From: Candidatus Tumulicola sp.
Lineage (GTDB): Bacteria > Vulcanimicrobiota > Vulcanimicrobiia > Vulcanimicrobiales > Vulcanimicrobiaceae
Length of the DNA stretch: 64,000 bases
Reading direction: 5' to 3'
NCBI GenBank assembly: GCA_036490475.1
Contig: DASXDT010000005.1
Span: 310,001-374,000 of the forward strand
The notes beneath the pieces are model-generated. The model did no database searches. It was not told the DNA's origin and worked only from the letters and a program-made list of their open reading frames with translations. The position numbers and the translations under genes were made by a program. Positions 5,188-13,765 of the stretch are shown here, one piece after another (within the stretch, counting starts at the first letter, position 1; each line of letters begins with the position of its first letter).

Positions 5188-6189
5188 ATGTTACACCGAG
5201 CCCCATTTGCATTGTCTTTGGGAGCGGCCGCGGCGCTGTTGGCGGCGTGTCAGGGCAATCCAGCCGCCTCGTCGGGCGCACCGCCGGCGCTTTCCGCCGG
5301 CTCCTACGCGCACGACCGCTTGGGATCGTGGATCGCGCCGAACGCCCGCGCGGCATCGAGCTTACTGTACGTTTCGAACCTCAGAAGCAACGACGTTCGA
5401 ATTTACAGCTACGACGGGGGCGATCAGCACGAACTGATCGGAACGTTGAAAGGCTTCAAGCAACCGGCCGGCATGTGCACCGACAAATCCGGAAACGTGT
5501 ACGTGGTCGATAGCGGGGCGTATAGCGTCTACGAATACGCGCACGGACAAACTGCCCGTCTCCAAACCATCTCCGAACGCCCGTACGGCATTCCTTATTC
5601 GTGCGCCATCGATTTCCAGCACACCGGCGATCTGGCAATCGTCAATCAAGCCGATCGCAAGCGCCACCTCGTACCCAACGTGCGCGTCTATCGCGGCGGC
5701 TCCGGCGGCACGGGATACGAAGGCTTCGACAATACTGGCGACCTGCTGTGGTCGGCGTACGACGACAGCGGCACGTTATATGTCGATGGTTACGATAACT
5801 ACGGCATTCCGGCGCTCTTCGAACTACCAAAGCGCGGCGGAGCCTTCGGTGAAGTCGCCATTCACGGTGCCACCATTTCGACCCCGACGGGATTATCGTG
5901 GGTCAACCCAGCCCTTCTCATCGGCGACCAAGACTTTCAACGCAAGAACATTTCAGGGGCGTACAAGTTGAACGTGTACGGCGACCGTGCCGACGTCGTC
6001 GGAAAGCTGCCGTTCAAAGGCACGATCGACGTGCATGGATTCTGGCGCCGCGGCGACCGTTTGGTCGCGCCGGACGAAACCGAAAACAACGTTGCGATCT
6101 TCACCTTTCCGCAAGGTAAACCGTACGCGATTTTCAATAACGACGTTTCCAAACCGTTCGCGGCCACGATCAGTCAGTTCGGCAACTAA
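5188..6189 (+). CDS. Beta-propeller lipoprotein (NHL/SMP-30-like)
   Basis: 333 residues. ATG 5188 is chosen over the in-frame ATG at 5182 because AAAGGA (5177-5182) gives it normal spacing. The N-terminus is a lipoprotein signal (ALSLGAAAALLAAC, lipobox LAAC, Cys about residue 21). The rest consists of repeated blades with the pattern LYVSN...DVRIYSYDGG and GNVYVVDSGAYSVYEYAHG, typical of six-bladed propellers found in large families in some soil phyla. The ligand or reaction is unknown; the protein should sit on the periplasmic side of a membrane. It stands alone and ends before the bidirectional terminator at 6236-6265. Confidence 0.72.
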   Translation: MLHRAPFALSLGAAAALLAACQGNPAASSGAPPALSAGSYAHDRLGSWIAPNARAASSLLYVSNLRSNDVRIYSYDGGDQHELIGTLKGFKQPAGMCTDKSGNVYVVDSGAYSVYEYAHGQTARLQTISERPYGIPYSCAIDFQHTGDLAIVNQADRKRHLVPNVRVYRGGSGGTGYEGFDNTGDLLWSAYDDSGTLYVDGYDNYGIPALFELPKRGGAFGEVAIHGATISTPTGLSWVNPALLIGDQDFQRKNISGAYKLNVYGDRADVVGKLPFKGTIDVHGFWRRGDRLVAPDETENNVAIFTFPQGKPYAIFNNDVSKPFAATISQFGN

Positions 6190-6212
6190 CGCCGCTCGGG
6201 TCCGTGTTCGTT

Positions 6213-6242
6213 TAGATAGCAAAAAGGTAGATAGCAAAAAGG
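6213..6242. repeat. 15-bp perfect tandem duplication
   Basis: TAGATAGCAAAAAGG occurs twice in tandem (6213-6227 and 6228-6242). The second copy supplies the A-tract of the terminator that follows. Confidence 0.85.
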
Positions 6243-6265
6243 ACGCCGGTACGCGGCGTCCTTTT
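6236..6265. terminator. Bidirectional intrinsic terminator
   Basis: An A5 run, a 7-bp stem GGACGCC/GGCGTCC with a 7-nt loop, and T4 lie between the convergent genes ending at 6189 (+) and 6287 (-), serving both. Confidence 0.82.
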
Positions 6266-6286
6266 CACGTTCATGCGCGACCGGCG

Positions 6287-7213
6287 TTAGTGCGGTTTTT
6301 GGGTGGCGGCGGGTTGGGGTGAGGGAGCGGCGCATTGTTGCGCTCCGTTCATCACGGCGACGGAAGCGGTATTTTCACGCTTTTCGGTTTCGGCGATCGT
6401 CCAACGCAACGCCGTCAGTAACCGCGTCACCGGATTGTAGCCCAGCGTCAATCCCGGGACGTTGGCGAGATCGATGTCGTACGGGTTGGGCGGCAAACCC
6501 GGCTGATTGGGATTTTGCATCAGCGGATTCGGCGATGGCGTCCCGGACATCGACATGGTGCCGCCGCGGCTGCCGGTTTGTTCGCTGGAGTTGATCGCGG
6601 CGACGTATTCTTCGCCTGCGTGTTGCAAGTCGCCCATCTGCTCGGTAGCAACGAAACCGCTAACGATGTCGAGGGCAGCATTTTGAGTCGCCAGCGCTGC
6701 CAGAAGTTTGGCGCGAATGTCTTTCAGTTGCTTGTCGTCGTCGGGATTGCCGGTGCCTTGCATTAACGCAGGCGAATCGAGCAGTTTCTGCGTTTCGATG
6801 ATGTTGTTGGCGATCGGGCTGACGAGATTTTCCATTCCAAGCAACGCCATGTTCTGGTCGGCGTTGAGCGTGCCGTTCGACGCATCGCCCGCAGTCACGG
6901 CCGCGCCGTTCGCCGTGGTACCGACGCTATTGCTGACCGAGTTGTCTACGCCGTTCAACGCACTGAGGTTGTATTGCGAGAACAGCTTCGGACTTTGCTT
7001 GATCGTTCGATCGTTTTGCAGCATCATCGCGATGGCCGGCGCGATATGCTGGTGCAGCTCGGCACACAGCGGACGCGTCACGATGTGGTAAATCTCCGGC
7101 GGCGGGGTGCCTTTGGGAGCGGCCGTGGCGGCGACGCCGACGACCGCCATTTGGGGCGCGGACGCCAGCGCGGCAAAACTCAGAATCGCTAAAGCGGATG
7201 CGGCACGTACCAT
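6287..7213 (-). CDS. Exported protein of unknown function
   Basis: 308 residues from ATG 7213; the frame is open further, but that part lacks a signal and reaches back into the preceding gene. An N-terminal signal peptide (ALAILSFAALASA) precedes a mostly helical, polar body. It contains PLCAELHQHIAPAIAMMLQNDR near residue 50, an Asn/Asp-rich middle, and a Pro/Asn-rich linker (PSPNPLMQNPNQPGLPPNP). A helix ends at TALRWTIAETEKREN. No family is recognised. It begins 58 bp after the DUF5916 gene on the same strand and may be the last gene of that transcript. Confidence 0.55.
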   Translation of the reverse strand: MVRAASALAILSFAALASAPQMAVVGVAATAAPKGTPPPEIYHIVTRPLCAELHQHIAPAIAMMLQNDRTIKQSPKLFSQYNLSALNGVDNSVSNSVGTTANGAAVTAGDASNGTLNADQNMALLGMENLVSPIANNIIETQKLLDSPALMQGTGNPDDDKQLKDIRAKLLAALATQNAALDIVSGFVATEQMGDLQHAGEEYVAAINSSEQTGSRGGTMSMSGTPSPNPLMQNPNQPGLPPNPYDIDLANVPGLTLGYNPVTRLLTALRWTIAETEKRENTASVAVMNGAQQCAAPSPQPAATQKPH

Positions 7214-7271
7214 CACCGTAGATATACGCCCCCCGCAGTCTGCCGCCTCTCTTAAGCCGCCGAGCGTACGC

Positions 7272-9389
7272 TCACGTTCCCTTCTCGGCGCCCGCATAGA
7301 AAATCCACTTGAAAATCGCCTGCGGCACCGTCGTCAGCGCGTTCGGATTGCCGTAAGCGACGTAGAACTCGCTGTGCGGCGTCAACAGATGGTACGCGAC
7401 CGTCACGTTCGAGCAGCTGCCGACACAGTTGCCGCCTCCGTTAGGGATCGGAGGATCGCCGATGACGCGCCGGACGCCGAGCGCGAACGACGAGTTGCGC
7501 GTGATCTGAAACGAGTAGCTCGCGTTCTCGAACCACTGGATGTTGGGCGTCGCGTTCGGAAAGCGCTGCGCCGTATCGTCGAGCGCCAGCGTCAGCGCAC
7601 CGCGCGATCCCACGCGAATGGTCGAACTGCGGAACCACGTGTCCAAGCGCCCGTTGCCATAGGCACCGGTGCTGTAGTTGATCGAGGTCGGGTCCGAGGA
7701 CGATCCATGGTACGGAAAGTTACCCGGATTATTCGTCTGAAGACCGCTGTGATACGTAATTTGGAAGCCGGCGTTCTGCGAAACCGGTGTAAGAATCCCC
7801 ATCCCGGTAAGCGGGTCGACGAAACGCCAATAGTTCGATCCGGTGAAGACCTGAAAATCCCACGCGCTCTTGGTGAGGACGTCGAGCAGCAGCGAGTTAT
7901 CGCTCTGCGCGATCCCTTGTTGCGGTCCTTGGTACCGGTCGAGGAACCCCGCGACACCCACCGCCGCAAGCACGTCGTTGGGAGCGAACGTCCAAATCTT
8001 TGCGCTGTATAGCGCGTAGCCGGCGATACCCGGGTGCGAAACGAAGCCGTCGACCGGATTGTAATATTCGCCCAGCTTTCGAACCGAGCCGAAAAATCCG
8101 AACGTCGAGTTGCTCCAGCCGCCGCCGAAGTCGTAGCGCTGTGCCTGGTTCGGCACGAGCACGTTCGTGCCCGCATCGCTGCCGTAGTCGAAATACGCTT
8201 GAACGTGTTTGAGGTCGTAATACGAGATGCCGGTGGTCGTGACGTCGTCGGTCAACCCCGGCATGTTCGCAGAGATGCGCTGCACCGCGGCGCCCCATCG
8301 ACCGTCGGGCGACGAATAGTCGAGCGCGCTCGCGACGTCGGTGCGATCGTCGCCGATCGAGTCGAACGTTCCGAACGTTAACGGCCCCTGTTTACCTTCG
8401 ACGGCGTAGCCTTCGCGAGGCGTCGGAATGGCGGGCGTGTATAACTCTTGTATGCTCGGGCAGGCGTCGCAGTTGAACTGATTGTACACGTTGGCGCCCT
8501 GCGTGAAGAACGGGCGCACCTCGCTATAATAGCGGGCGTAGACCGTCGGCGCAATCGACTGCTGATCCAACTCGACGTTCGAATAATCGGGATGGAACGT
8601 CGCGTAGAACGCGGCAGTCGGGCCGATCGGAACGGACAGATCGGCACCGACGCGACTCGTCGATCCCCCAATCGTTTTCGACGCCGCTTCGGCGAGTGCG
8701 TAGGTCGCGAGTCGCGGCTTCGGTTTGGGGACGGAAACGTGGAGCGGCGGCATGACGAGGACGCCGGCGCGCGTTACGTCGTCGGCACTATTTTGTGACG
8801 AGTCGTACGACCATACCGCGATTTCGCCGGTCGCGTGGACGTATCGCACGAACTGCGCGCGCCACGGAACGTTCGGAGCGATGCCGCGTATGATCTTTAG
8901 AGGAATCTTCATGGTCACGGTATAGCCGCCGGCGTGCGTCGCGCCTTGCGACTGCCACGACGGCGTGTAGTTGGTATTCTCGGAAGAGTATTGATAGTGC
9001 GTGCCGTTCGGTGTCGCTTGAAACTGATAGGTGAAACCGCTGGTGCCGTCCGGCCATAGATCGATCCATACCGAGTCGTCACTTCCTTGCCCGATGTTGT
9101 CGGTACGCTGGGCTGCCGCTACCGGCTCGCGTTGCGTTGCATCGAAGCGAACGTACAGCGACGTTCCGTCGGTCGAAATTGCGGCTTGCGTCGCTTCGGA
9201 TGCTGGCCGCGACGCGGGAACGTTCCATCCTAACTTGACTCGTGCCGCCTGCGCCCACCCATCGCTCGATGACGACGGATCCAACGGCGCCGCCAACTCG
9301 GGTACGGTCAAGCGCGTGACGCCGAGCGCATTGGCCGGAGCAGCAAGCGTCGCTAGAAGACATACGACGATCGCCGCCCGGCCAAACAT
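7272..9389 (-). CDS. DUF5916 / CBM9-like secreted protein (paralogue 2)
   Basis: 705 residues from ATG 9389, whose A is shared with the TAA stop of the pentapeptide gene upstream (TAATG), so the two are probably translationally coupled. It has a signal peptide (AIVVCLLATLAAPANA), a CBM9-like N-terminal domain (SLYVRFDATQREPVAAAQR, DDSVWIDLWPDG), then the long DUF5916 barrel region. Features shared with the protein at 39-2330 include HPDYSNVELDQQSIAP and an RPFFTQGANVYN-like segment. The role is unknown; outer-membrane location is inferred from the family. Position behind the BlaI-M56 pair suggests expression with that signalling cassette. Confidence 0.72.
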   Translation of the reverse strand: MFGRAAIVVCLLATLAAPANALGVTRLTVPELAAPLDPSSSSDGWAQAARVKLGWNVPASRPASEATQAAISTDGTSLYVRFDATQREPVAAAQRTDNIGQGSDDSVWIDLWPDGTSGFTYQFQATPNGTHYQYSSENTNYTPSWQSQGATHAGGYTVTMKIPLKIIRGIAPNVPWRAQFVRYVHATGEIAVWSYDSSQNSADDVTRAGVLVMPPLHVSVPKPKPRLATYALAEAASKTIGGSTSRVGADLSVPIGPTAAFYATFHPDYSNVELDQQSIAPTVYARYYSEVRPFFTQGANVYNQFNCDACPSIQELYTPAIPTPREGYAVEGKQGPLTFGTFDSIGDDRTDVASALDYSSPDGRWGAAVQRISANMPGLTDDVTTTGISYYDLKHVQAYFDYGSDAGTNVLVPNQAQRYDFGGGWSNSTFGFFGSVRKLGEYYNPVDGFVSHPGIAGYALYSAKIWTFAPNDVLAAVGVAGFLDRYQGPQQGIAQSDNSLLLDVLTKSAWDFQVFTGSNYWRFVDPLTGMGILTPVSQNAGFQITYHSGLQTNNPGNFPYHGSSSDPTSINYSTGAYGNGRLDTWFRSSTIRVGSRGALTLALDDTAQRFPNATPNIQWFENASYSFQITRNSSFALGVRRVIGDPPIPNGGGNCVGSCSNVTVAYHLLTPHSEFYVAYGNPNALTTVPQAIFKWIFYAGAEKGT

Positions 9390-10027
9390 TACAGACGCGC
9401 TCCGGTTAAGGGCGAATGTCCGCGCTCGCGCAAGGTCGCCGCATCGACCGGCGCACACGAGTCGTTGTTACCGCAGATCATTGCGCCGCGGAGGTCGGCG
9501 CCGCGGACGTCGGCGTTCGCAAATTCGGCACAATCGATGTGGCCGTTGTAATCGCGCGTGCAGATTTTGGTATCGCGCAGATTTGCGTCGCGGAGATCGG
9601 CGCCGGTGAAGTTCACACCGATCAGATCGGCTCTCGGCATTTGCAAGCTTTGTGCTTTAGCGCCCCTGAAGTTGGCGCCGACGAGGCTGGCCGCGTCGAA
9701 ACGAGCGCCGGTTAAGGTCGCGAGCTGAAAGTTGACGCCGACGAGTTTGGCTTTGGTGAAATCGGCCGACGTCGCATCGGCATTACGAAAATTCGCGCCG
9801 ACCATTTTGGCTCCGGACGCTTTCGCGCCGCGTAGATTCGCGTCGGAAAAGTTCGCCCCGACGTAATTCGTGCCCGAAAGATCGGCACCGTGCAGATCTC
9901 GTCCGCTAAACGAGCAGCCGAGACAGCTCGACGGCAGATCCGACGAAGCACTGCGAGCGGCCGGTGGTACTGCCGCCACGATCGCGATTGCGGCGATCGC
10001 GAGACAAGCGGTGGTGATGCGGGTCAT
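9389..10027 (-). CDS. Secreted pentapeptide-repeat protein
   Basis: 212 residues. A signal peptide (ACLAIAAIAIVAAVPPAARS) is followed by about 25 A(D/N)LXX-type pentapeptides (ADLSG, ANFSD, ANLRG, ADLRD) that should form a right-handed quadrilateral beta-helix. An opening CLGCSFSGRDL motif closely matches CTGCDYTGVDW in the M56 protein encoded upstream, so the two repeat domains are probably related by duplication. Cysteines in the C-terminal third (ICTRDYNGHIDC, ICGNNDSC) suggest disulfides in the periplasm. It is the third gene of the blaI-like transcript. Confidence 0.75.
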   Translation of the reverse strand: MTRITTACLAIAAIAIVAAVPPAARSASSDLPSSCLGCSFSGRDLHGADLSGTNYVGANFSDANLRGAKASGAKMVGANFRNADATSADFTKAKLVGVNFQLATLTGARFDAASLVGANFRGAKAQSLQMPRADLIGVNFTGADLRDANLRDTKICTRDYNGHIDCAEFANADVRGADLRGAMICGNNDSCAPVDAATLRERGHSPLTGARL

Positions 10028-10137
10028 ATACTAACATCCTTTCGATGGTTTTGGGCGCAACAAACCAGACCGGGGGTCCGGCTCGAACAAATACTACGAA
10101 CTGTACGGGGTTAGCGGCTGGAGAGATTCATGCGTGG

Positions 10138-12228
10138 TTACCGATCGTCTGGATAGTCGGTATCGATGAGTTTGGCGCGAGCCAGGTCGGCACGCGTTAG
10201 ATTCGTCCCACTGAGATCGCAGTTGGTGAACACTGCACCCTCGAGGGTAGCGCCGCTCATGTGTGCCCCGGCGAAATCGACGTTAGTAAACGAGCCTCCC
10301 AGCAGATTGGCATGCGAGAGATCCGCGCCGGCAAAATCGATATTGGCGCCGCGAACGTTCGAAAGGTCGACGCCGCCGAGATTTGCTCCCGAGAAGTCGC
10401 AGCCGCTGCAACCAGTTACGATACTGCGGATGCGCGCCGAGGTCAGTTGTGCATGGTTGAACTGACATCCGGTGACGCGCGCGCCGGTGAAGTCGGCCCC
10501 CGACAAATCGGCGCCGGTGAAATCGCATCCGGAAAGACGGGCGTTACGGAACGATGCGTTACGCAACCGAGCGTGCGTAAAGTCGACGCCTAGGAACGTG
10601 CTGCCGGAGAAATCGGTGTTGTCGAGATTCGCACGAGTCAGATCGACGCCGGTATACGACACACCGCGAACGTCCCGTCCGCGCCAGTCGACGCCGGTGT
10701 AATCGCATCCAGTACACGCTTTTCCGTCGTTAACGAGGCCGATCTTCGGAATCGTGACGTCGATCGGTGCCAAGTGAATCGAGGGCATGTCGATGGCCGG
10801 GATGTGCACCGCGATCGCGCCGCTCGCGAGAGGTTTCGGCGAAACCGTTACTCGCAGGCTCTTCGTCCCGAACGGTGACATCGACGCGAGCGCATGCGCC
10901 GTCGCGACCGGATGCGCCGTCGACGCCGGGTGCGCCGTCGCGGATGCGTGCGTCGTCTTGATGGAAACCGTCGTTGCGGCAGGGTGCGATGACGGCACTG
11001 CGGTTGCCGCAGCAACGGCGGTGCGCGGAATGTCCACGTACCGGACTACGTCGCGAACGGTTTGAACCCGATCCGCCACGATCGGAGGTAGTGCGGCCGG
11101 CTGTACCGTCGCTGCAACCGACGGAGCGACCGAGCCGATCGCGCAGCCCAGCAGTACGACGCCGGCGACGGCGAACGCCGCGATGCCGAACGACGGGTTC
11201 GTGCCGGTGGCGCGGCCCGCGAACAAGAGACGTTCGATGCGCAGCGAGAGATGTTTGCGCGTTGCAAACACGGCCGGTGCGGCGATCGGGCCGCGCGGCC
11301 ACGACGAAGATTCGGCCATTTTCGCCAAGCACATCGCGTAGGGCCGAACGACGCCGCTCGCATCCAGCACGTAGTCGTCGCACGCAACTTCACGTTCGAG
11401 ATCGAGCTGCGCGGCGGCGAAGCGCACGGCCGGATTCCAGCCGAAAGCCGCTAGCAGAATGCGCGTCAGACCGTTCGTCCAATCGTCGGCGCGACGCAGA
11501 TGCGCCAACTCGTGTAACGCGATTTGGTCGATTTCATCGGCCGATAACCGTTCGAGCAGTTCGCGCGGAATCAAAATCATCGAATCGAACAGACCGACCG
11601 CGACCGGCACATCGATTTGATCGCTGATGCATAAGCGCACGTCGCGCACGCCCTTGGTGGCGGCGTTCCAGCGCACCATGCAGTCGCGATACTCGACCGG
11701 CAACGGAAGTGCATCGCGTTTGAGCCGTTCGAGCCGCATCAATCCGACGCCGAAGCGAACCGCGCCGGCGAACGTCACGAGCGCCCACAACGATGCGAGC
11801 ACGACCGCGACGACCAGCGGCAGCTGCAGATGCAAGCGCGGAACGACGGCCGGGGCGACGATCTCGTTGTGCGTTGCGGCGGCATCGTGGTGCGGTGTGC
11901 CGGTGCGCGAAGCCACCTGGCGAGCGCGAACCGGAGCCGCAGTAGCGGGGAAGGCATGCATCGCAGGTACGATGGACGCCTTCACCGCAGCGGTCGCCGC
12001 TGCCGGCGGCGACATCGAGAGGAACGGCAGCGTCGTTGCGACCGGCACAACCACGGCCGCAACGAGCGCTATGCTCCAGATCACGTATCGCGTCGCCGCG
12101 TTGACGCGCGGCCACGTACGTAGGAACATCCAAACGCACGCAACCACGAGTGCGTCTTCCCACAACGAGTTGAGTCCCACCGCGGTGACGGTTGCGGCAA
12201 CGTTGCCGAGAACGTGCGATGCGTTCAT
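10138..12228 (-). CDS. M56 (BlaR1/MecR1-type) membrane peptidase fused to pentapeptide repeats
   Basis: 696 residues. The N-terminal half is a BlaR1-type integral membrane zinc protease: helices near residues 25-38, 48-70 and 133-160, catalytic HELAH at 239-243 (ALHELAHLRRADDW), and a further helix near 350-375. Unlike BlaR1, the C-terminal sensor is not a penicillin-binding domain. A Thr/Ala/His-rich linker leads to about 30 pentapeptide repeats (from about residue 510, beginning CTGCDYTGVDWRGRD). The start overlaps the blaI-like stop by ATGA. By analogy it would sense an envelope signal through the beta-helix and trigger cleavage of the BlaI-like repressor. The ligand is unknown. Confidence 0.85.
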   Translation of the reverse strand: MNASHVLGNVAATVTAVGLNSLWEDALVVACVWMFLRTWPRVNAATRYVIWSIALVAAVVVPVATTLPFLSMSPPAAATAAVKASIVPAMHAFPATAAPVRARQVASRTGTPHHDAAATHNEIVAPAVVPRLHLQLPLVVAVVLASLWALVTFAGAVRFGVGLMRLERLKRDALPLPVEYRDCMVRWNAATKGVRDVRLCISDQIDVPVAVGLFDSMILIPRELLERLSADEIDQIALHELAHLRRADDWTNGLTRILLAAFGWNPAVRFAAAQLDLEREVACDDYVLDASGVVRPYAMCLAKMAESSSWPRGPIAAPAVFATRKHLSLRIERLLFAGRATGTNPSFGIAAFAVAGVVLLGCAIGSVAPSVAATVQPAALPPIVADRVQTVRDVVRYVDIPRTAVAAATAVPSSHPAATTVSIKTTHASATAHPASTAHPVATAHALASMSPFGTKSLRVTVSPKPLASGAIAVHIPAIDMPSIHLAPIDVTIPKIGLVNDGKACTGCDYTGVDWRGRDVRGVSYTGVDLTRANLDNTDFSGSTFLGVDFTHARLRNASFRNARLSGCDFTGADLSGADFTGARVTGCQFNHAQLTSARIRSIVTGCSGCDFSGANLGGVDLSNVRGANIDFAGADLSHANLLGGSFTNVDFAGAHMSGATLEGAVFTNCDLSGTNLTRADLARAKLIDTDYPDDR

Positions 12229-12611
12229 TGAGAACGTTCCTCGTATCGCTCGATGAGCGTTCGGAGACGGGACAGCTCGTCGTCGGACGGTCGTTCCGAC
12301 TCGATCAAGCGTAACGCGAGCGAGCCCGAACTGTTCTCAAAGAATCGTGAAACCAAATGTCCGACGGCAGTTTGAGCGGCGGCGTCTCGCGCGACCAGTG
12401 GATGGTACACGAATGCTCGCCCAGCTTCTTCATGAGCGACGAACCCTTTCTGCTCCAGGATGCGCATGGTCGTCAGAACGCTGTTGTAGGCGATTGGGGG
12501 CGGGGGAAGCGACGACACCACTTCGGCGACGGTCGCCGTCCCCAGAACCCACAGCACCTCCATTAACCGAAGCTCCGCCTCGGTCAACGTCTTCGAGCGC
12601 GAGCGCGCCAT
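12225..12611 (-). CDS. BlaI/MecI/CopY-family transcriptional repressor
   Basis: 128 residues. A winged helix starts LTEAELRLMEVLWVLG (residues 9-24), with a recognition region YNSVLTTMRILEQKGFV and a C-terminal dimerisation helix (SDDELSRLRTLIERYEE). The family binds operators as a dimer and is inactivated by the partner M56 protease. A good Shine-Dalgarno (AAGGAGG) precedes the ATG. The stop overlaps the M56 start by 4 nt. The dyad and promoter at 12642-12683 are the likely autoregulatory site. Confidence 0.9.
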   Translation of the reverse strand: MARSRSKTLTEAELRLMEVLWVLGTATVAEVVSSLPPPPIAYNSVLTTMRILEQKGFVAHEEAGRAFVYHPLVARDAAAQTAVGHLVSRFFENSSGSLALRLIESERPSDDELSRLRTLIERYEERSQ

Positions 12612-12641
12612 GTAGCCTCCTTCAACGGGTACTCTTAAAGA

Positions 12642-12683
12642 TTTAGTTACACTCTACGACGGTTAGAAACAGATGTCAACTAA
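12642..12683 (-). promoter_or_regulatory. Promoter of the blaI-like operon with a dyad operator
   Basis: On the minus strand TTGACA (12679-12674), a 17-bp spacer and TAGAGT (12656-12651) form a strong sigma70 promoter. It is embedded in an inverted repeat: TTAGTTGACA (12683-12674) and TGTAACTAAA (12651-12642). BlaI/MecI boxes are dyads containing ACA/TGT halves, so repressor binding here is plausible. It could also affect the divergent lipoprotein gene at 12743. Confidence 0.65.
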
Positions 12684-12742
12684 TTTCTTAGGAGTAGCCG
12701 CGCGCGGGAATGCCGCGACCGTGTGCCAATAAGGAAACGCTC

Positions 12743-13765
12743 ATGATGACGACGGTTTCTGTGCGCTTGGCCCTAGGCGCGGTTATTGCTGCCGCACTGC
12801 TCGCCGCTTGTGGAAAAGGGACGCCGCTGACCAGCGGTACCGCGACGCCGGGCCCGGCGTTTACGCCGCAAGTCACGAGCGAATACGCTATTCCGACGGC
12901 ATCGAGTCAGCCAATGGGCATCGCGCTCGGCTCGGACTTGAACATTTGGTTCAGCGAAGCGCGCTCCAGCAAAATCGGCCAGCTCAATGAAAACGCTAAG
13001 TTTAGCGAAGCGGTCACGCCGACCGCCAAAGCCGGTCCCGTCGGCATGGCGTCCGGTCCGAACGGCCTCGTTTGGTTTACCGAAAAGAGCGTCGGCAAAG
13101 TTGGGCAGATCCAGCTAACCGGGCCGACCTTCGTCGATTTCCAGCTGCCGAATGCCGCCGCCCAACCCGTCGGTATCACGCTCGGGTCCGACGGCAACAT
13201 GTGGGTGACCGATCCGGGCGCCGACCTCATCTGGCGCGTTACGCAAAAAGGTGTCGCGACTTCGTGCAAGCTGCAGGCCAACGCACAACCGTTGAGCGTC
13301 ACCAGCGGCCCCGATGGCGGCATTTGGTTTACCGAGCCCGGCACCAACAGCATCGGACGCGTCAGCGTGACCGATCCGTGCGCGTCGCTGGCCGAGATCA
13401 AGATTCCCACCCCTAACGCGTCGCCTGCCGGCATCACGTCGGGAACCGATAATGCGTTGTGGTTTACCGAGCAAAAAGCCGATAAGCTCGGTCGCATCGC
13501 CGTGACGGGCCAAGTCACCAATGAATATCCGATGACGCCGGCAATCTCGCCCGACGGAATCATCCAGGGCATCGACGGCAACTTCTATTTCAGCGATCCC
13601 GGAGCCAACGCGATGGGACAGTTCAAATACAAGAGCCAGGCCGTGCGCCTCTTCAAGGTTCCGACGCAGAACGCGCAGCCAGGGGCGGTGACGCTCGGTC
13701 CCGACTCGCAGGTCTATTTCGTCGAAACGGCTGCCGATAAACTCGGCCAGTTCAAGTACTTCTAA
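12743..13765 (+). CDS. Streptogramin-lyase-like (Vgb) beta-propeller lipoprotein
   Basis: 340 residues from ATG 12743, with AAGGAA about 8 nt upstream. The lipobox is LLAAC (Cys about residue 23). Seven blades carry the Vgb signature G(S/P)DGN(I/M)W(F/V)T(E/D) several times, for example GSDGNMWVTD and GPDGGIWFTE. Virginiamycin B lyases linearise streptogramin B, but most lipoproteins with this fold are uncharacterised. I do not see the complete His/Glu active-site set with confidence, so antibiotic inactivation is not claimed. It is divergent from the BlaI-M56 operon. Confidence 0.75.
   Translation: MMTTVSVRLALGAVIAAALLAACGKGTPLTSGTATPGPAFTPQVTSEYAIPTASSQPMGIALGSDLNIWFSEARSSKIGQLNENAKFSEAVTPTAKAGPVGMASGPNGLVWFTEKSVGKVGQIQLTGPTFVDFQLPNAAAQPVGITLGSDGNMWVTDPGADLIWRVTQKGVATSCKLQANAQPLSVTSGPDGGIWFTEPGTNSIGRVSVTDPCASLAEIKIPTPNASPAGITSGTDNALWFTEQKADKLGRIAVTGQVTNEYPMTPAISPDGIIQGIDGNFYFSDPGANAMGQFKYKSQAVRLFKVPTQNAQPGAVTLGPDSQVYFVETAADKLGQFKYF

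Follow-up and report, generated by a model that had tools for sequence, protein, structure and literature searches.

In staphylococci and bacilli, the BlaI/BlaR1 and MecI/MecR1 systems place a repressor and an M56 protease in one operon. The protease bears an HExxH motif with a third ligand, and the repressor a segment at which it is cleaved. The locus described here shares these elements, the cleavage segment being a predicted one. It differs in its sensor, a predicted double pentapeptide beta-helix on a long linker where BlaR1 and MecR1 have a penicillin-binding domain, in its predicted targets, a secreted pentapeptide protein and a CBM9/DUF5916 barrel, and in its operator, CTAA-N4-TTAG. For BlaI_0696 and BlaI_1845 of Clostridium thermocellum, two dyads (inverted-repeat pairs) per target are given as the rule in the accessible part of the report (PMC8457756). 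According to the same part, those repressors are autoregulated and have small regulons with paired inverted repeats at the targets, as is predicted here; their half-site, GTCTAT / GACTAT, and their targets are different (PMC8457756).

The second element of comparison is the pentapeptide domain. HetL, Qnr and MfpA, which share the fold, are free-standing, whereas here one such domain forms the outer part of a membrane protease and another belongs to an exported protein, and CxGC caps with further conserved Cys residues set the present proteins apart. The fold of pentapeptide repeats is named the right-handed quadrilateral beta-helix. DUF5916/CBM9 proteins have a CBM9-like domain followed by an outer-membrane-type barrel, as is predicted here; no published function for DUF5916 was found in the literature searched. 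The searches, which ran mostly outside subscription papers, also returned no description of an M56 protein with pentapeptide repeats or of pentapeptide repeats in Eremiobacterota. The core is of the known BlaI/BlaR1 kind; as far as these searches go, the pentapeptide sensor, its partner and the DUF5916 regulon have no earlier description.

The operon and its sensor protease

The window is the whole 64,000-nucleotide stretch of DNA that was analysed, from Candidatus Tumulicola sp. Five co-directional genes run along its minus strand from 12611 to 6287, encoding BlaI, an M56-pentapeptide protease, an exported pentapeptide protein (PPsec), a DUF5916 protein and an exported protein of no known family (Table 1). 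The blaI and protease genes overlap by 4 nt (ATGA), and the TAA of PPsec shares one base with the ATG of the DUF5916 gene (TAATG). For the last gene, neither Pfam (on the longer reading, 6287-7297) nor NCBIfam gave a match. Gene maps of related loci indicate that the operon is kept over many genera. A virginiamycin-B-lyase-like gene (12710-13765, plus strand) is divergent from blaI, and likewise in several relatives (e.g. L033, L036-L040, L049). The same genome contains a second M56 gene.

Table 1. Features of the operon, in window coordinates
Feature	Position	Strand	Details
Operator O1 (predicted), CTAAGAAATTAG	12680..12691	-	abuts the -35 box
Promoter	12651..12679	-	-35 TTGACA 12679-12674, 17 bp spacer, -10 TAGAGT 12656-12651
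Operator O2 (predicted), CTAAATCTTTAA	12635..12646	-	45 bp from O1, directly downstream of the -10 box
blaI-type winged-helix repressor	12225..12611	-	128 aa; Penicillinase_R E 2.6e-29 (Pfam)
Membrane protease of family M56 (BlaR1-type), C-terminal domain a pentapeptide beta-helix	10138..12228	-	696 aa
PPsec, exported pentapeptide protein	9389..10027	-	212 aa; Pfam pentapeptide E 9.9e-40
Exported CBM9-like domain and outer-membrane-type beta-barrel, DUF5916 family	7272..9389	-	705 aa
Last gene, exported protein	6287..7213	-	308 aa; homologues in related operons
Intrinsic terminator ending the operon	6225..6275	-	hairpin then T run, -24.2 kcal/mol, z -5.55

The first-pass annotation, made from the sequence, proposed a BlaI-M56 pair with a pentapeptide sensor, and its genes and coordinates were right: Pfam finds Penicillinase_R, M56 and PF00805 as described. 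BlaI scores 102.3 bits against a cut-off of 22.6 and aligns to MecI over 8-121, with R101-L102, in the segment LALRLIE, opposite MecI N101-F102. N101-F102 is the cleavage site of S. aureus BlaI in the accessible text of PMC9834060. In the protease, the M56 domain covers residues 26-333 (E 7.7e-32; 111.1 bits, cut-off 31) and PF00805 matches after residue 500 (E 1.9e-37). HELAH lies at 239-243, and E280, which aligns with the corresponding BlaR1 Glu in a profile alignment, is the downstream Glu zinc ligand. H239, E240, H243, E280 and F321 are present in all 25 aligned sensors. The distance from E240 to F321 is 81 residues, as compared with 82 from Glu202 to the autocleavage Phe284 in BlaR1, the latter figures being from the accessible text of PMC9834060. 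A profile of the M56 part retrieves BlaR1 8exp with an E value of 2.8e-15, whereas the NCBIfam model blaR1_generic reaches 66 bits against a cut-off of 400, its match confined to the M56 part.

What follows the M56 domain sets this protein apart. HELAH had been read as followed by about 30 repeats; the motif and the repeats are there, 34 five-residue units over 505-690 in two blocks (18+16), 32 of them matching a simple pattern, but the last transmembrane helix and a disordered linker of ~120 residues (about 378-501) intervene. In many sensors, e.g. L034, L038 and L040, the linker aligns as a run of VxVP-like repeats. An AlphaFold2 model, built with 25 relatives, has long helices at 3-38, 44-69, 138-172 and 347-367, which we read as transmembrane, and two beta-helices at 505-597 and 607-690 with a short helix between them; pLDDT is over 90 over most of the beta-helical length. 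In Foldseek this tail matches HetL, Qnr and MfpA, while BlaR1 8exq is the match for the membrane part. Each beta-helix begins with a conserved CxGC cap. C505, C508, C607, C610 and C670 are invariant in 25/25 sensors, and C568 and C588 are found in 24/25. Because C508/C568/C588 and C610/C670 are spaced by 20 or 60 residues, which is whole helix turns, these cysteines should stack along one face of the beta-helix. Going by the topology of BlaR1 (PMC9834060, accessible text), the pentapeptide tail would lie outside the cytoplasmic membrane.

Distribution of the fusion and the secreted partner

A named genome scan with alignment returned 51 M56 loci, comprising 36 fusions, 12 uncut loci without pentapeptides and 3 cut by contig ends. 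It took up the suggestion of searching for M56-pentapeptide fusions and their neighbours: the fusion boundary is conserved, and the partner is absent in some loci. Of the 36 fusion records, 34 bear the label Eremiobacterota or Eremiobacteria, and two are named otherwise, L089 ("bacterium") and L095 ("Proteobacteria bacterium"); apparently all 36 belong to Eremiobacterota, L089 falling in the same family and L095 in the same class. An M56 match at 1e-20 was obtained in 84 of 149 genomes of the phylum, all in the same family or class. The M56 proteins of Gemmatimonadota, Zixibacteriota, Latescibacterota and Fraserbacteria in the scan carry no pentapeptides, and the one of Bryobacterales is cut; as the query consisted of two M56 peptides, the scan may have passed over fusions elsewhere whose M56 domains have diverged. 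A Gemmatimonadota M56 protein with a DUF4837 tail (L117, 5986-8151) represents another unusual outer domain. We also used a hand-picked set of relatives, mostly from the top of the relatives list; it overlaps the named scan, so the tallies from the two are not independent. BlaI is encoded upstream of the fusion in 34/36 loci of the named scan and 37/37 of the hand-picked set.

The next gene had been called an exported pentapeptide protein with a similar CxGC cap, and the cap is indeed found in both proteins. PPsec, assigned to its family from sequence (PF00805; the beta-helix model is of the sensor protein), has a signal-peptide-like N-terminus and 24 five-residue units, 20 of which match the simple pattern. 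Its cap is at 35-38, with further conserved Cys at 156, 166, 185 and 191 in an alignment of 28 ORFs, the counts retaining a few rows that are mis-started or are not the post-sensor gene. A hydrophobic leader is present in 34 of 39 distinct homologues. Two tandem pentapeptide genes follow the sensor in L066 (5858-7339). In all 29 pairs compared, a DUF5916 start is found between -3 and +4 relative to the stop of PPsec, and in 21 of them the two genes overlap by 1 or 4 nt. This arrangement, typical of translational coupling, suggests that PPsec and the DUF5916 protein act jointly.

The assignment of that protein to DUF5916 (PF19313) is a probable one: it scores 20.3 bits itself, below the cut-off of 22.6, but its orthologue in L183 passes with 27.4. 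In the model (mean pLDDT 76.7), a beta-sandwich similar to CBM9 (VIA Z 18.9, rmsd 3.0, 189 aligned) is joined to a barrel that resembles outer-membrane receptors (Z 15.5, rmsd 4.8, 336 aligned); the barrel matches of Foldseek and VIA reflect a widely shared barrel layout and do not point to a close relative. Among loci with at least 2 kb of sequence, DUF5916 follows the fusion on the same strand in 25/29 (named scan) and 22/34 (hand-picked). Of the four named-scan loci without it, L084 (genome G034) and L095 (G070) have DUF5916 elsewhere with its own operator pair (L181, L182, L187), L090 (G002) has an operator where a contig ends, and nothing of the kind turned up for L108 (G052).

Operators and regulon

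The promoter, TTGACA-N17-TAGAGT, is the only sigma-70-like site in 6000-13000, a count not above chance (1 found, 1.8 expected). It had been placed inside a single dyad. The dyad exists, with 23-nt arms that are 78% complementary, and the promoter is framed by BlaI-type dyads; one BlaI site at 12642-12683 was rejected, however, as the dyad is made of the facing halves of two self-palindromic operators. Each palindrome is CTAA-N4-TTAG, and the promoter sits between two copies ~45 bp apart. Among 41 regions upstream of blaI, 25 contain two copies of the motif or of a close variant at a spacing of 44-46 bp, as compared with 0.0 expected from first-order resampled sequence; the pair is found at 22/37 fusions and at 3/4 paralogues without pentapeptides. 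Its first copy touches the -35 box and its second comes after the -10 box. The four paralogues (L060-L063) have no other Pfam tail domain either, and since three of them share the operator type, a genome may have several BlaI proteins that recognise it. In L036, L037 and L049 the operator pair lies ~160-215 bp before blaI, farther than at other loci, which leaves room for a leader or a small ORF. Nine more distant loci (L064-L072), all fusions, have no such operator upstream and, where this can be judged, lack a DUF5916 gene in the 1.5 kb that follow the sensor; the link between sensor and DUF5916 is therefore not universal.

Which other genes carry the operator? Genomes were searched with a pattern consisting of the operator pair plus its -35 box, the reversed pattern serving as control. 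There were 31 hits in 78 genomes as compared with 2 for the control, and 10 in 12 genomes as compared with 0; in the genome of the window the single match is this operon. Sorted by neighbours, 29 of the 41 matches are at BlaI-M56 loci and 12 elsewhere. Five of these orphan operators (L179, L181, L182, L183, L187) are 11-58 bp upstream of a DUF5916 gene, the longest reading of which overlaps the operator in L182, and one (L195) precedes a secreted pentapeptide gene. Three precede other genes, encoding a DUF4097 protein (L186), a PDZ protein (L185) and a 317-aa protein (L204); for L178 and L180 the target is not clear, and L184 is at a contig end. In L047 and L059 the operators also face a divergent DUF5916 gene. 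The orphan operators ahead of DUF5916 tie blaI to this family independently of gene order, in agreement with the earlier proposal that the operon controls its DUF5916 gene, and the orphan targets point to a regulon made up largely of DUF5916 barrels and secreted pentapeptide proteins. The strict pattern gave no such operator at further DUF5916 genes, among them two additional copies in the same genome. A second DUF5916-family gene is present in the window itself at 39-2330 on the plus strand (G000:C5:310120-312327, 510 bits), and the search gave no BlaI operator pair for this gene.

A proposed mechanism and its alternatives

Gene order, the conserved operator pairs, the genes that carry them and the active-site residues come from the sequence and from comparison, and the folds are predicted. 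Our preferred reading, to which we give a probability of about two in three, is a repressor-cleavage envelope sensor, in which an M56 protease with a pentapeptide input acts on BlaI bound at O1 and O2 and the output is an envelope module. Topology, signalling and cleavage would be as in BlaR1. BlaI dimers would occupy both operators, flanking the one promoter, and keep the operon off. The protease would bear its double beta-helix outside the cytoplasm on the long flexible linker, and a change at that domain would open the cytosolic zinc site. Cleavage of BlaI at about R101-L102 would then derepress the operon and other DUF5916 genes. The products would be a pentapeptide protein in the periplasm and a CBM9/DUF5916 barrel in the outer membrane, their synthesis linked by translational coupling, along with more repressor and sensor. 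PPsec is here read as part of the output, possibly with feedback on the sensor; our guess is that it works chiefly with the barrel and may in turn influence the sensor, either by pairing with it or as a decoy.

The first-pass annotation saw the signal in a heteromeric contact, with PPsec docking on the sensor beta-helix. The two proteins have the same fold and the same CxGC cap, and the separate secreted pentapeptide gene of L195 has its own operator. Among loci with at least 1 kb of room, PPsec directly follows the fusion in 25/33 (named scan) and 26/35 (hand-picked, one of the 26 being a 62-aa remnant), which leaves it away from the sensor in 8 and 9 loci of these overlapping sets. Genome-wide, PPsec is absent from G006, G012, G037 and G054, which are 95-96% complete and keep the sensor, the query matching the sensor only, and an obligatory partnership was rejected on this ground. 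Similarity between PPsec and the first sensor module is 0.413 within a genome (20 pairs) and 0.413 between genomes (530 pairs), from which it appears that the modules split long ago, with no sign of pairwise co-adaptation at this coarse level. As PPsec is, moreover, coupled to DUF5916 and not to the sensor, we consider the docking signal unlikely. Rather doubtful, in our judgement, is a role for PPsec in negative feedback, in which it would serve as a soluble version of the sensor module and end the response by taking up the ligand or by capping the sensor. PPsec would suit this: it is an ancient duplicate of that module, the modules being 38-41% identical, and from gene order and operators its synthesis would be limited to times when the operon is expressed; its loss in several lineages and its tighter coupling to DUF5916 than to the sensor speak against it, and the binding it requires is hypothetical.

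Could the locus be an ordinary sensor of beta-lactams or cell-wall damage, with the pentapeptide domain only a scaffold in a decorated tail? The BlaI-M56 core would fit, and homologous pairs govern resistance elsewhere (accessible text of PMC9834060). We regard this as very unlikely, because only pentapeptide families exceed the Pfam cut-off in the C-terminal, extracytoplasmic part, where Pfam finds no penicillin-binding domain, because no beta-lactamase is among the regulon targets seen, and because Cys residues and caps that stay invariant across the 25 sensors speak for a specific role. A doubtful but more far-reaching variant is a sensor of outer-membrane quality or occupancy: free PPsec or an unpaired barrel would be read by end-to-end stacking on the sensor beta-helix, and the protease would adjust barrel supply through destruction of the repressor. 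If true, it would be a BlaR1-type pathway serving outer-membrane homeostasis, not drug resistance.

BlaR1 is known as an antibiotic sensor. In the repressor-cleavage envelope sensor that we prefer, the same protease-repressor core, fitted with a different outer domain, appears to control proteins of the envelope in a class of soil bacteria most of which are uncultivated. Together, the operator and its regulon provide a first handle on DUF5916, and they make sensing by a pentapeptide beta-helix testable.
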